Source: Malus domestica (taxonomy: Eukaryota; Streptophyta; Magnoliopsida; Rosales; Rosaceae). Taken from it: 64,000 nt of DNA. Within the stretch, counting starts at the first letter, position 1, and each line of letters begins with the position of its first letter. The notes beneath the pieces are model-generated. The model ran no database searches. It was not told where the DNA came from and was given only the letters and a program-made list of their open reading frames with translations. Below are positions 14,484 through 22,036 of the stretch, one piece after another. The stretch covers positions 25,002,001-25,066,000 of the forward strand of contig NC_091674.1 of NCBI RefSeq assembly GCF_042453785.1, written 5' to 3'. Position numbers and translations under genes: made by a program.

Positions 14484-15970
14484 ATGGATCTCTCTCTCTT
14501 GTTCCTAAACACTTCCATAGCTGGACTCTTTGCCATGCTTGTGTTTTCCTTCTCTATGATCACAATTTGGAGGCTTAGAACTGCTGCTGCAAATGCCAAA
14601 CTTCCCGAACCACCAAAAGTGGCAGGCGGGTGGCCTCTAGTAGGTCACCTCTACCTATTCAGACGGCCCCAGTTCCACCCCATGTAACGTTGGGAGCATT
14701 GGCGGACAAGTATGGACCAGTCTTCAGCATCAGAATTGGCATCCACTCCGCCCTTGTGGTAAATACTTGGGAGGCTGCAAAGGAGTGCTTCACCAGCAAC
14801 GACTTGGTTATTTCTCAACGTCCCAAAACTATAGCCGCTGAAATCTTGAGCTACAACCACGCCATGCTAGGGTTAAGCCCGTATGGTGCATACTGGCGTG
14901 ACTTCCGCAAAATTATAGTCCAAGAGCTACTCTCAAGCCACATGCTTGAGCAATTCAAACATGTTCGAGAATCCGAAGTAGTGATGGCCACAAAAGAGGT
15001 ATACAATCTATGGACCAAAAGAAACGATTCAAAAGAAAATGGTTCCGGACAACTTTTGGTGGAGCTGAAGCAGTGGTTCAACGATTTAACTCTAAAGGTG
15101 TTTTTTAGGATGGTTGCTGGAAATAGATATAATAATTTGGGTGACGAGATAGACGAAGTTCGGTGCCATAAGGCCGTGAGGGAGCTCTTTCATTTTATTG
15201 GATTGTTTGCCCTTGGGGATGCTGTTCCATGGCTTAGGTTTTTGGATATTGGTGGGCACGAAAAAGCTAGAAAAAAACTGCCAAAGAGCTCGATACCATA
15301 GTTATGTCCTGGTTGGAGGAGCACAAGCAGAGAAGAGCTAAAGATGGAGACAATAATCGAGATTTCATCGACCTGATGCTTTCAGTCCTCGACAGACAAA
15401 ATGTTGCGCAACATGAATCATTTGATGCTGATACCGTCATGAAAGCAACAGTTTTGGTACATAGTATGAATGTTCTTAATTAACTCGCATGCAGCACCAA
15501 ACTTCTCTTTTAGCCATCTGTAATCGTTGTTTTGTATTATAATTGGATATGTATTGAATAAGCAACTTGATTATGACTTTGCAGAATCTGATTGCTGGAG
15601 GAAGCGATCCAACCTCCGTGCTCATGGGCTGCGCAATCTCAATGTTGTTGGACAACCGCCATGCTTTGAAGAAAGTCTATGAAGAACTAGACAACCATGT
15701 TGGCAAAGGAAGACTAGTGAATGAATTAGATATCAATAATCTCGTGTACCTGCAAGCCGTTATTAAAGAAGTGTTGCGTTTATATGCAACATTCTCTGGC
15801 TACAGAGAATTCACCGAGGACTGCATTGTGGGAGGGCACCATGTCCCGAAAGGCACGTGGCTGATAGTGAACGCGTGGAAGATTCATACTGACCCGCAGG
15901 TTTGGGATGACCCGATGGAGTTCAAGACGGAAAGATTTCTCAAAAGATATAAGGATGTTGATGTCAAGGG

Positions 15971-16735
15971 TGTTGGAGAACAATTCAGAAATAAACAGAA
16001 TAACAAAAATAAACAAAACTTGAAATTCACAATTTTTATTTCACAAAAGGTACTTGCTATACATAATGAAAAATATACAATAAATACATAAATTAATATA
16101 AGAATGTCAACGGTACTAACTTGATTACAGAAGGTAGAGGCTAGCATAAAAACTATGTCATTTGAACAGTAATTCCGTCTCACTCTTGTGCTTGTGGTTC
16201 TATAACGTCTGCTCGACCAGGATACAACTACCTAATCCTATAACCCGCACTGGATTATAGAATTCTAGCGAATTGCTTTGTGTGTTTACTCTCTCTGGAA
16301 AGTTTGTACGAAAGAAAAGGAAGAAGAAAAGATGATTCATTTGGATACCATGGATTGCAGATATATAGGCTGTTTCACACCCTTTCAAATACCAGTTCAG
16401 TGTATTTGAAGGTTCACAACTCTTTTCTAAGAGCTGTGTCTTTTAACCAAAACGCTTTTAATTAATAATAAATTAATTAAAAACTTAATCCGAAAATTAA
16501 AATTAATGAATCAGATTAATTTTAAATTCCAAGGCACTTGTCTTGATTAATTAATATTAATTATATTTAGGCTATATTATACAAGCCTAATCCACACAAC
16601 CATAAGGTCCAAGCCTTCAATCCATTTCCAAATGGCCTATATTCTAATTACTAGACTAAAGCACTAAATCTATATAAAGACCCTTGAGAATCTTGTTTTC
16701 CCCAATGTGGGACAAGAGTCTCAAAACTTCCAACA
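15971..16735 (-). repeat. left (3') LTR of the decayed Copia element
   Basis: Begins TGTTGGAGAA and ends CTTCCAACA on the plus strand, 765 bp. The adjacent minus-strand AAAATGTGGGGTAT at 16736-16749 is a good polypurine tract. Compared with the right fragment over 256 bp it differs at roughly a dozen positions, by eye count. Confidence 0.85.
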
Positions 16736-17300
16736 ATACCCCACATTTTGAGACGACTGTTTGGTCTTAGAGAAACTGAAACACGAGAGTAAACAATAGA
16801 TGTGACATACATCAGGAAAGATGTCTTTTGGACTTGAACCTACCTTAGTATATACTTATCGGATTTACTAGATGACGCAGTGAATATAAAATCTTGAACT
16901 GTTCATCTCCGCAGTAAACCAAGACAATAAGCAAAACATATGTCACACCAACACATTGCAAATTCATATGTTTGTGTTCATTTTGGTTCTGAACAAATCC
17001 TGGATTCATGAGAGCTTTAGAGAATGTAGCCATGTAATTCTCATAAATGTGACCCCACATTTACTCTCATATAGGTGATATTGATTATGAATAGGCTACT
17101 ACTATTCCACTTGATTTACAAGTACCAATATCATTAAACTAATGTATCCTGCACCATCAGCAGTCACCACACTTCTTCCATCATAGGAATGGGTATGTAA
17201 GTGTGTTTCTTCTTGAATCTAGCCAAACCAGTTTGCCTATTGAACCTAGACCATGGGATCTCCAATCAACTAGGTTAGGTTTCCGTTTGGCAGTTTCATT

Positions 17301-20300
17301 TTACTCTATTGGCTTTAAACCCATTCCCCTCGATGTATGTTTAACTTGCTCTCTAGATAAGCCTTTAGTAAGCGGATTCGCAATATTATCTTTTGACTTG
17401 ACATAGTCAATAGAAATTACACCACTAGAGAGCCATTCCTTTATTGTATTATGTCTTCGTCTAATTTGTCTAGACTTCCCATTGTATACACTATTTTTAG
17501 CTCGATATTGTGCAGCTAAACTATCACAGTGTATACATATTGTCGTTACAGGTTTAGGCCATATGGGAATATCTTCCAAGAAATCTCTTAGCCACTCAGC
17601 TTCTCCTCCAGCCATATCGAGAGCTATAAATTCTGATTCCATAGTTGATCGGGCTATACATGTTTGTTTGGAAGATTTCCAAGATATTGCTGCTCCTCCC
17701 AAAGTAAATACATATCCACTTGTGGATTTCGTATCAGTACTATCCGATATCCAATTCGCATCAGTGAATCCTTCGAGCACAGGAGGATACCTCGTATAAT
17801 GCAATCCATAATTCATTGTATGCTTTAAGTATCTCATAACTCGAATTAAAGCTTCCCAATGATCATGCCCAGGATTGCATGTATATCTATTCAATCTACT
17901 CACGGAGTATGCTATATTGTACAGTTCATAATGTACATAAGGCTTCCAATAACTTGTGAGTATTCACGTTGATATATAGCATCATCTTTATTTTTCTTAA
18001 GTTTGCTATTGGCATCAAAAGGAGTAATTGCATCCTTACTTTCCAAATGACCATATTTCCTAAGTGTAGCTTCTATATAATGGGACTGAGTAAGAATATA
18101 TCCTTCTTGGTTTCTTTTTATTTTTACACCAAGAATCACATCAGCTAGTCCAAGATCTTTCATATCGAAATTTGATTTCAATATCTTCTTGGTCCAATGT
18201 ATTATCTCTTTGTTAGTTCCCATTATAAGCATATCATCTACATATAAACACAACATAACGCAAGCATTATTTTGAGTTTTTGTGTAGACACACTTATCAC
18301 ACTCATTTATCTTAAAACCGTATGTGATCAGAACATGGTCAAATTTTTCATACCATTGCTTTGGAGCTTGTTTAAGCCCATATAGCGATTTCACAAGTTT
18401 ACACACTTTGTGTTCTTTACCTTTAACTACAAACCCCTCGGGTTGTTCCATATATATTTCCTCATCTAAGTCTCCATATAAGAATGCAGTTTTTACATCC
18501 ATTTGATGTATTTCCATGTTAAGGAGTGCATCTATAGCAATCAATAATCTTATTGAAGTAATTCTCGTTACAGGTGAGTATGTATCAAAGAAATCCAAAC
18601 CATGTTTTTGACGGTATCCTTTAGCCACCAAACGAGCCTTATATTTGTCAATTGTACCATATGGTTTTAATTTCTTCTTAAAGATCCATTTGTACCCAAT
18701 TGGCTTATTGCCAGGGGGCAAATCGACTAATTCCCATGTATGATTTTGCATAATGGAATCTATCTCACTGTTAACTGCATCCTTCCAAAATGGAGCTTCA
18801 GGAGTGGACATGGCCTCCTTGAATGATTGAGGTTCTGTCTCGGTTAATAAAGTCACAAAATCAGGCCCAAAGTCCTTTCGGATTTTTGTCCTTTTACTTC
18901 TTCTAGGTTCAAGTTCTTCTTCTTGAACTCTAGACGAGGTTGAACCATCATCATGTTCTCTAGGTTCATTAGTAACCTCAGATACATCATCATGTATTCT
19001 CTTTTTCAATAAATTAGACTTGCCTATTTTGTATGGAAAAATATCCTCAAAAAATATTGCATTTATAGATTCTATAATAGTATTGCATGTATATCACTTA
19101 TTTCGGAATGAAAAACTAAGAATCTATAAGCCGAACTATTAGATGCAAAACCAATAAAAACACAATCAATAGTTTTAGGTCCTAATTTTGTTCTTTTTGG
19201 CAATGGAACCTGTACTTTTGCCAGACAACCCCACACTTTAAGCAATTTAAACATAGGGGTTCTTCCTTTCCATAATTCATATGGTGACTCCTTTCTCGTT
19301 TTAGGTGGAATTCGATTCAAAATTTTATTTGCAGTAAGTAAAGCTTCACCCCACAAATTGTGTGGAAGTCTAGAACTATTCAACATAGAATTGATCATGT
19401 CTTTAAAAGTCCTATTTTTCCTTTCGGCAACACCGTTTTGTTGTGGTGTATAGGGGGCTGTTGTTTGATGAATTATGCCATGTGTGGCACAAAATTCAGC
19501 AAAAGCATGAGACTTATATTCTCCTCCCCTATCGGACCTTAAGACTTTAATCTTCTTGTTAAGTTGATTTCAACTTCTGCTTATATGTCTTAAACATATC
19601 CAAGGTCTCATATTTGTTATGAAGTAAATAAACATAACAATACTTACTGAAATCATCTATAAATGTTACATAATAATTCTTTCCACCACGAGTTGGTATG
19701 ATCTAAAATCACACAAGTCACTATGAATTAAATCTAACAAATCATTGGATTTTTCATGCACTGATTTAAAGCTTTGGCTTGCAAATTTCGATTCTGTACA
19801 AGTTTCACATTTAACATTATCTAGATAATCAATTTTGGGCAGCAAACCTAAATTATGCATTCTAAAAAGAGAACGAAAATTTACATGTCCTAACCTAGAG
19901 TGCCATAAATTAGACGAATCAACAATATAAGCAGAAACATTATTTATTTCATTCATAGCATTAGCAAGTACATTGAGTTTGAATAATCCATCAGCAAGGT
20001 AACCCTTTCCCACAAACATTCCCCCTTTCGTTAATACAAACTTATTAGACTCAAAAACTAGTTTGAATCCTTTATTATTAAGGATAGGACCAGAAACAAG
20101 ATTATTCCTTATATCGGGGACATGCAGTACGTCAAGAAGGGTCAATTCCTTTCCAGAAGTGAATTTTAGAACACACTTCCCTATTCCAGCCACAACAGAT
20201 GAGGATGCATTTCCCATAAACAGCTGCTCGTTTCCCTCTATTTTCTGGTACGAAGAAAACATTTTTCTATCACCACAAACATGGCGAGTCGCACCGGTAT

Positions 20301-21234
20301 CTATCCACCAATCAGCGTGGTCAGATATGAGGTTGATTTCAGAAATCATTGCAGCCAGGACATCCACATTGTTTTGAATCAAGTTTGCGCGGTTGTTGTT
20401 GCCTTGATTTCCAGGACCTTGATCCCTTCGATGGCGACATTCTTGAGCCCTATGGCCTTACTTTCCACAAACCCAGAAACTTCCCTTGATTTTCTTGAAG
20501 TCTTTGCCTTTCGCACCAGGGATAAAGTGGCTTTCCTTCTTCTTAGTTTTCTGGAATTTTGGCCTTTGCTTTGATGAACTTCCTTCAATAACATTCGCCT
20601 TGGCTTCCATACTCGAAACCAGGCCCTTCTCATTCTTTCTGTTATCTTCCTCAATTCTCAGCCTTACAATGAGATCCTCAAGGGTCATCTCCTTTCATTT
20701 GTGCTTGAGATAACTCTTGAACTCTTTCCAAGAAGGTGGTAGTTTTTCTATAATGGACGCCACTTGGAAAGACTCATTGATTACCATCCCTTCAACATGA
20801 ATGTCATGGATGATTTTCTGGAGATCTTCAGTTTGAGAGACAACAGACTTGGAATCCACCATTTTGTAGTCCAAAAATTTACCCACGACAAATTTCTTTG
20901 AACCAGCATCCTCGGTTTTATATTTTTTCTCAAGTGATTCCCAAAGTTCCTTGGCTGTTTTGCACCCTACGTAGACATCATACAATGAATCATCTAATGC
21001 ATTAAGAATATAGTTTTTGCAGAGGAAATCATTATGTTTCCAGGCATCTATAGCCGTCAAAGTTTCTGCAGAAAAAATATTTTCTCCATCTGCAATAGGT
21101 TCAGTCTGGTGCACAACATTAGCCAAATTCAAGGTTGTCAGATAAAACAGCATTTTCTGCTGCCATCGTTTGAAGTCTCCGCCCTTAAATTTCTCAGGCT
21201 TCTCAGAAAGAGGTTTAGTTCCTGATTGTTCCAT
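17301..21234 (-). pseudogene. Copia gag-pol, multiply disrupted
   Basis: The gag start MEQSGTKPLSEKPEKF lies at 21234. In-frame stops fall after SYLKHK (about 20695) and inside the zinc knuckle (CGK-stop-GHRAQEC, about 20458). The protease WWIDTGATRHVC and the LWHSRLGHV region are readable down to about 19700, where a frameshift hits the start of integrase. Integrase pieces continue at 19072-19398. RT with [12 protein letters not shown] occupies 17912-19009. A small deletion after NCT (about 17912) shifts into the RNase H part (17301-17903: FTDANW, STMESEF, CDSLAA). It cannot encode a working polyprotein and is clearly older than the element at 5-10 kb. Confidence 0.9.
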
Positions 21235-21247
21235 ACTGTTCGAATAT

Positions 21248-21800
21248 TGTTGGAGAACAATTCAGAAATAAACAGAATAACAGAAATAAATAGAACTTGA
21301 AATTCACAATTTTTATTTCACAAAAGGTACTTGCTATACAGAATGAAAAGTATACAATAAATACAGAAATTAATATAAGAATGTCAACAGTACTAACTTG
21401 ATTACAGAAGGTAGAGGCTAGCGTAAAAGCTATGTCCTTCGAACAGTAATTCCGTCCCACTCTTGTGCTTGTGGTTCTATAACGTCTGCTCGACCAGGAT
21501 ACACTCGAATTAAAGTTTCCCAATGATCATGCCCAGGATTGCATGTATATCTATTCGACCAGACGTTATAGAACCATAAGCACAAGAGTGGGACGGAATT
21601 ACTGTTCGAAGGACATAACTTTTACGCTAGCCTCTACCTTCTGTAATCAAGTTAGTACCGTTGACATTCTTATATTAATTTCTGTATTTATTGTATACTT
21701 TTCATTTTGTATAGCAAGTACCTTTTGTGAAATAAAAATTGTGAATTTCAAGTTCTGTTTATGTCTGTTATTCTGTTTATTTCTGAATTGTTCTCCAAAA
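21248..21800. repeat. inverted LTR fragments with 50-bp spacer (potential hairpin)
   Basis: Arm 1 (21248-21503) matches the first 256 bp of the left LTR. Arm 2 (about 21554-21800) is the same stretch reverse-complemented. Between them is a sequence matching 17839-17893, the RNase H region around ACTCGAATTAAAG. The arms are about 245 bp each and nearly identical by eye, so transcripts across them would fold back. Confidence 0.9.
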
Positions 21801-22036
21801 AAGGGTCGGCATTTTGAGTTAATGCCTTTTGGTAGCGGTCGAAGAGCATGCCCTGGCATAAATTTGGGCCTTCACTTGACGCTTTTGATCCTGGCTAGTT
21901 TTCTGCATGCGTTTGAGATCTCTACTCCAACAAATGCAACCGTTGATATGTGTCAAGGATTTGGAGATTCCAACAAGAAATCTACCCTACTTAAAGTCCT
22001 CGTTGAACCTTGCATGCCTCCAAATCTCTATGAATA

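Follow-up and report, generated by a model that had tools for sequence, protein, structure and literature searches.

A Ty1/copia element, read on the minus strand at 15971–21800, interrupts a cytochrome P450 exon in the window, the 64,000-nt stretch of Malus domestica DNA analysed here, and is flanked on either side by the 5-bp duplication AAGGG. The features of the locus, in window positions, are the following.

15558–15968, plus strand: cytochrome P450 exon, left part (PF00067, 6.5e-36)
15966–15970: left target-site duplication AAGGG (direct reading; single copy in paralogs L040 and L041)
15971–16735, minus strand: complete 3′ LTR of 765 nt, TG...CA, with the U5 edge outermost (reading and alignment)
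16736–16746, minus strand: ATGTGGGGTAT, adjoining the 3′ LTR, which we take to be the polypurine tract (direct reading)
16747–21234, minus strand: degraded gag-pol in several broken frames (Pfam: RVT_2, integrase core, gag-pre-integrase, copia gag)
17301–17963, within gag-pol: presumably the RNase H region (Pfam match none)
17839–17892, minus strand: source copy of the 54-nt filler, within the RNase H region (alignment)
21235–21247, minus strand: leader of 13 nt, from the LTR end to the gag ATG, which together with the A of this ATG contains TTCGAACAGTA
21248–21503, minus strand: direct 5′ LTR remnant, the U5-side 256 nt (95% to the left LTR)
21438–21448, minus strand: putative self-primer, the segment of the 5′ LTR remnant complementary to the leader over 11 nt
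21503–21556, minus strand: RNase H filler of 54 nt, in the sense of the element (98% to 17839–17892, same orientation)
21555–21800, plus strand: inverted LTR arm of 246 nt, its U5 edge forming the right terminus of the insertion (alignment)
21801–21805: right target-site duplication AAGGG (direct reading)
21801–22034, plus strand: cytochrome P450 exon, right part (PF00067, 2.1e-09)

In the left LTR the U5 edge lies on the outside, the normal arrangement at the 3′ end of an element on the minus strand, and the element starts there with TGTTGGAG at 15971. At the opposite side the LTR starts normally beside gag at 21248 and breaks off after 256 nt, to be followed by the RNase H filler and then by the inverted arm, such that the insertion closes on the right with the left U5 edge in reverse complement and ends with CTCCAAAA at 21800, its terminal CA reading AA. 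An initial annotation had described two U5-side termini, the right one an inverted LTR fragment, bracketed by a duplication of AAGGG, and the reading at 15966–15970 and 21801–21805 and the course of the arm up to the U5 edge bear this out; the extent it gave, 15966–21805, corresponds to the outer limits of the duplications, with the element proper stopping at 21800. The piece of the element's own RNase H region that it placed at the inversion junction is indeed found there with 98% identity, at a length of 54 nt in place of 50, whereas the short words thought to be shared at both joins come strictly to one letter at the first and, at the second, to two letters if one LTR mismatch is allowed and to none otherwise. 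The domain order gag-INT-RT (copia gag, gag-pre-integrase, integrase core and RVT_2, from Pfam) is that of Ty1/copia, as is the 5-bp target-site duplication, and the left LTR reads TG...CA with the right terminus having AA for CA. This AA (window 21796–21800), situated beside the duplication, would be a later change or an imprecise end. The arm begins at a near-palindrome of the LTR (CTGGTCGAGCAG, window 21551–21566) in which one letter is altered towards a perfect palindrome, as expected from template switching at this position.

Five C15 loci from among 18 P450 matches were aligned to the interrupted exon, and all five (L040–L043 and L045) run across the site without insert, with L040 and L041 carrying GTCAAGGGTC with one AAGGG only. 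Hairpin reads can fake inverted repeats, and the right end of the insertion could on this ground be taken for a false palindrome introduced in assembly. We hold such an artefact to be very improbable, given that the two right-hand arms differ at 8 of 244 sites, that a duplicated 5-mer flanks the insertion and that the P450 exon resumes in frame beyond it.

Pairwise, the three LTR pieces of the window differ at 8, 12 and 15 of 244 sites, and the arm is thus not plainly younger than the remainder. Comparison with 27 relatives assigns 10 changes versus the family to the left LTR, 1–2 to the direct piece and 6 to the inverted arm, the latter including one terminal letter and one at the join. In the family, the 10 changes that mark the left LTR are uncommon, 7 of them being present in 1 to 3 of the 27 relatives, and this LTR may stem from another RNA. 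In the fine alignment of both arms with the left LTR, proposed as a check in the initial annotation, the inverted arm shares none of these 10 changes, which rules out that LTR as the source of an arm copied late; the direct piece carries too few changes for a like judgement. These counts bear on repair after insertion, in which a break in the right LTR of an ordinary element would be mended by synthesis-dependent repair that copied 54 nt from the RNase H region, continued into an inverted U5 and re-joined within the sequence TCCAACA. Plant break repair commonly leaves short templated fillers, and the U3 and U5 edges are identical over their last 7 bp, hence the end would seem intact. The absence of all 10 left-LTR changes from the arm speaks against repair, although late copying from the direct piece would be compatible with it, and with the sister insertions described below taken into account we regard repair as improbable.

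The searched genome (651 Mb, 19 contigs) contains 296 sites that match a 20-mer of the U5 edge with up to 2 mismatches, and the analysis of their pairing covers the 125 distinct sites listed of these 296. Outward-facing U5 edges within 16 kb of each other occur at three loci among the 125 (C14, which is the window locus, C9 and C10, the pair listed on C10 being the arm and the adjoining LTR, not the two termini), and no inward-facing U5 pairs are present among the same 125 of 296. The arm reaches the U5 edge in all three copies. To account for the three independent insertions, repair would each time have to stop copying the arm inside the final 7 bp. A 131-nt query for the window junction matched end to end at this locus alone (best 40 of 211 candidates), and a shared derived family, for which the initial annotation had advised to look, was not seen, the window and C9 junctions having one full-length match each (best 40 of 211 and best 40 of 158 candidates, respectively).

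The copy on C9 (C9:13688900–13695300) is 93% identical to the window element over 5.3 kb, carries a normal left LTR, and has the target-site duplication TATGT on both sides. Its right end consists of inverted U5, 154–172 nt long depending on how shared letters are counted, and this arm is joined to the leader ahead of gag. The C9 leader has 13 letters (CTTCGAACAGTAT) in common with the antisense of its own LTR, and the junction, CATACTGTTCGAAGATTGT followed by AGCTTTTACGC, is in register with this 13-nt leader/LTR match: the shared letters are followed by five that match the leader (ATTGT), and then the LTR resumes as if both had been laid side by side. The exact pattern of this join occurs at one genome site.

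Read from the left, the copy on C10 (L081 and neighbours) comprises an AAAAT flank, a complete inverted LTR (L081 125–876), about 230 nt of adjoining region and a filler, ATTCACGTCGGGTTCACCA, after which follow sense LTR from 281 nt before the U5 edge (window LTR count), the leader and gag. AAAAT is found at both outer ends, and the interior is 95.6–97.4% identical to the window element. A later insertion of about 7.2 kb lies in gag (C10:11941548–11948793), with a (CAA)n run at its start and flanked by CCTACTGTA; it looks to us like a non-LTR element, gag continues beyond it, and our reading of C10 leaves out some 5 kb of its inside (11943401–11948449). The right end of the C10 copy is the LTR of a different, related family (C10:11953157–11953767), followed by AAAAT. 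The inverted arm is a family-1 LTR and the copy's own 3′ LTR is of the other family, and deletions further set the arm apart from the 5′ LTR beside it, from which we infer that the arm came from another molecule. As an observation in its own right, the other-family 3′ LTR on a family-1 interior amounts to a swap of LTRs, the two families involved both being apparently self-priming.

The C10 filler matches the final 18 nt of tRNA-Trp, CCA among them, plus an A that also fits the next tRNA letter (18–19 nt). Two of the 15 tRNA-like sites in the genome (11 of them exact) were read; ARAGORN names both tRNA-Trp, and CCA is encoded in neither. The 18-mer with CCA has one genome site (up to 1 mismatch), which is the C10 join, and a reversed-pattern control likewise gave 1 loose match, so that the weight rests on the exact match at the join and not on rarity alone. 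Derivation of the filler from the tRNA-Trp primer site of another element is unsupported, the 18-mer being found at this single site with up to 1 mismatch. Judged by its letters, the simplest source of the filler would be a mature tRNA, copied from the 3′ end as far as about nucleotide 58. A methylated A near tRNA nucleotide 58 usually stops reverse transcriptases. A filler that includes CCA, absent from the tRNA-Trp genes read, points to RNA-templated copying before integration and so counts against repair of an integrated element. The C10 break at AGTGCGGG had resembled a cap site; a better TATA-like box, as judged by eye, lies about 110 nt upstream, which makes the break no more than a possible 5′ end of the RNA.

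A rearranged cDNA used by integrase had been the explanation put forward in the initial annotation, with autointegration or template switching as its source. A rearranged cDNA used by integrase is supported, template switching is supported by the two independent sister insertions, and the positions of the joins argue against autointegration. Autointegration, in which the LTR end of a cDNA attacks an internal site of the same molecule before integration, is known to rearrange retroviral and Ty1 cDNA. It would put an LTR terminus, with its CA end, on an internal site, whereas the window joins lie about 246–256 nt inside the LTR with no CA terminus at either, the U5 terminus of the window copy remains free on the outside, and the arms on C9 and C10 are likewise joined by their inner side. 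With the joins inside the LTR we reject autointegration, to which we give next to no credence.

Complementarity between the leader and the LTR of the same element extends over 11 nt in the window copy, 12 nt in C10 and 13 nt in C9, lengths that 0 of 2000 resampled LTRs reach in each case. The complement sits 172–201 nt from the U5 edge, and the left LTR of the window keeps 8 nt of it only. By eye, no primer site of tRNA-Met type is found in the 13-nt leader of the window, the tRNA-Met site being the sole comparison. For the sister family, the primer site was derived from the R letters of C10's other LTR family before searching, and a search with the predicted site (CTCCAACA, up to 6 letters, TAAAGATAG) gave 47 places, against 0 for a reversed-pattern control; primer and primer site thus co-vary between the two families. 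Two of these sister-family loci were read: in L089 a 12-nt stretch is complementary to the LTR of the same copy (2 of 2000 resampled LTRs), and L088 has 7-nt matches only, in the 700 nt tested. A fold of the leader with R-U5 is not unusually stable (z 0.38, with 131 of 200 shuffled sequences folding as well or better), its minimum-energy form leaves primer and primer site unpaired, and self-priming gains no support from it.

Self-priming has been predicted for the TAR lineage of plant Ty1/copia elements, which includes Houba and Osr-1 (Neumann et al. 2019, PMC6317226, where Tf1/sushi is also named). The window family is like this lineage in its copia gag-pol, its primer site complementary to its own LTR and its 5-bp target-site duplication; the passages of PMC6317226 on which we draw do not mention U5/U5 copies. 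On sequence grounds, the window family is probably self-priming and may be of TAR type. Tf1/sushi elements belong to Ty3/gypsy and use a self-primer cut from their own transcript, namely the very 5′ end of the RNA. The putative self-primer of the window family would also come from the element's own transcript, with the complement in this case 172–201 nt from the U5 edge.

The insertion is very probably a single cDNA that was misassembled in reverse transcription and then integrated, and its Ty1/copia family is probably self-priming. Minus-strand synthesis would have crossed the primer site and entered a 5′ LTR on its U5 side (21248–21503), whereupon the growing 3′ end would quit its template, inside the LTR in the window and C10 copies and just past the primer site on C9. 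In the window copy 54 nt of pol RNA, from the RNase H region, would be copied next, the transfer onto minus-strand DNA being either direct or by way of such a short piece of other RNA. The 3′ end would then land, in the window case, on a different minus-strand DNA (strong-stop DNA or a longer one), in the 5′ part of that molecule, and run off at its 5′ end. As the 5′ end of this minus-strand template is the U5 edge, the cDNA would gain a U5 terminus instead of the usual U3. The outer edges of the LTR have their last 7 bp (TCCAACA) in common, and integrase could for this reason use both ends, making the 5-bp duplication. The terminal CA reading AA requires a later change or imprecise use of the end, and this terminus and the uneven change counts of the LTR pieces are unexplained by the model. 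Also counting against it, the window filler could derive from DNA, and an RNA-only signature is absent in the window copy.

More tentatively, and with somewhat less than even confidence, we propose that self-priming builds in its own error, in that minus-strand strong-stop DNA can replace plus-strand strong-stop DNA at the second strand transfer. Because the primer would lie in the first-copied part of the LTR, minus-strand strong-stop DNA would bear the same primer-site letters as its plus-strand counterpart. If this holds, U5/U5 copies would be a regular by-product of self-priming families, and would document in the genome where the primer site and the RNA 5′ end lie and which RNAs, such as tRNA-Trp, are packaged.

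Three-LTR complexes with intact duplications are the form in which template switching is already known from plant LTR elements (PMC1950507). Sabot and Schulman (2007, PMC1950507) describe complex elements with flanking target-site duplications, produced by abnormal template switching, in Triticeae, rice and maize, and the window element shares with these abnormal template switching in reverse transcription, a single integration and the flanking duplication. Their elements are two-element fusions, defined by three LTRs and two internal regions, and the words "inverted" and "inversion" are absent from the text of PMC1950507, whereas the window element has one internal region and an inverted arm, with U5 replacing U3 at one terminus. 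PMC5668417 deals with recombination inside a plant family in the course of bursts. A narrow literature search, which supports no claim of absence, found among the entries listed no report of integrated U5/U5 elements, of a tRNA copy at such a junction or of a junction in self-primer register. Defective DNA with inverted strong-stop repeats, unintegrated, figures in the older avian retrovirus literature; the inverted duplication of an LTR end by misused strong-stop DNA is alike, and the copies described here are integrated fossils. The accepted view has an LTR element integrating by a U3 edge at one side and a U5 edge at the other, and tools for annotation and dating presume two direct LTRs. 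The presence of U5/U5 copies with intact target duplications suggests that integrase accepts two U5 ends in nature. Their junctions can be read as traces of reverse-transcription steps that are hard to watch in plants, among them the primer site, strand transfer and the copying of a tRNA to about nucleotide 58.

Element-sized pairs of U5 edges in the same orientation (4.7–7.2 kb) number 8 among the 125 listed sites, the window's own pair and a pair on C3 being left out. The latter (C3:17649963 and 17650541) consists of same-orientation U5 edges 578 bp apart, less than one LTR length, and may be another rearranged copy. At C13:6018643–6019652 there is an LTR in which the part corresponding to 206–335 of the query is repeated two further times over about 1 kb, with orientation unchanged.
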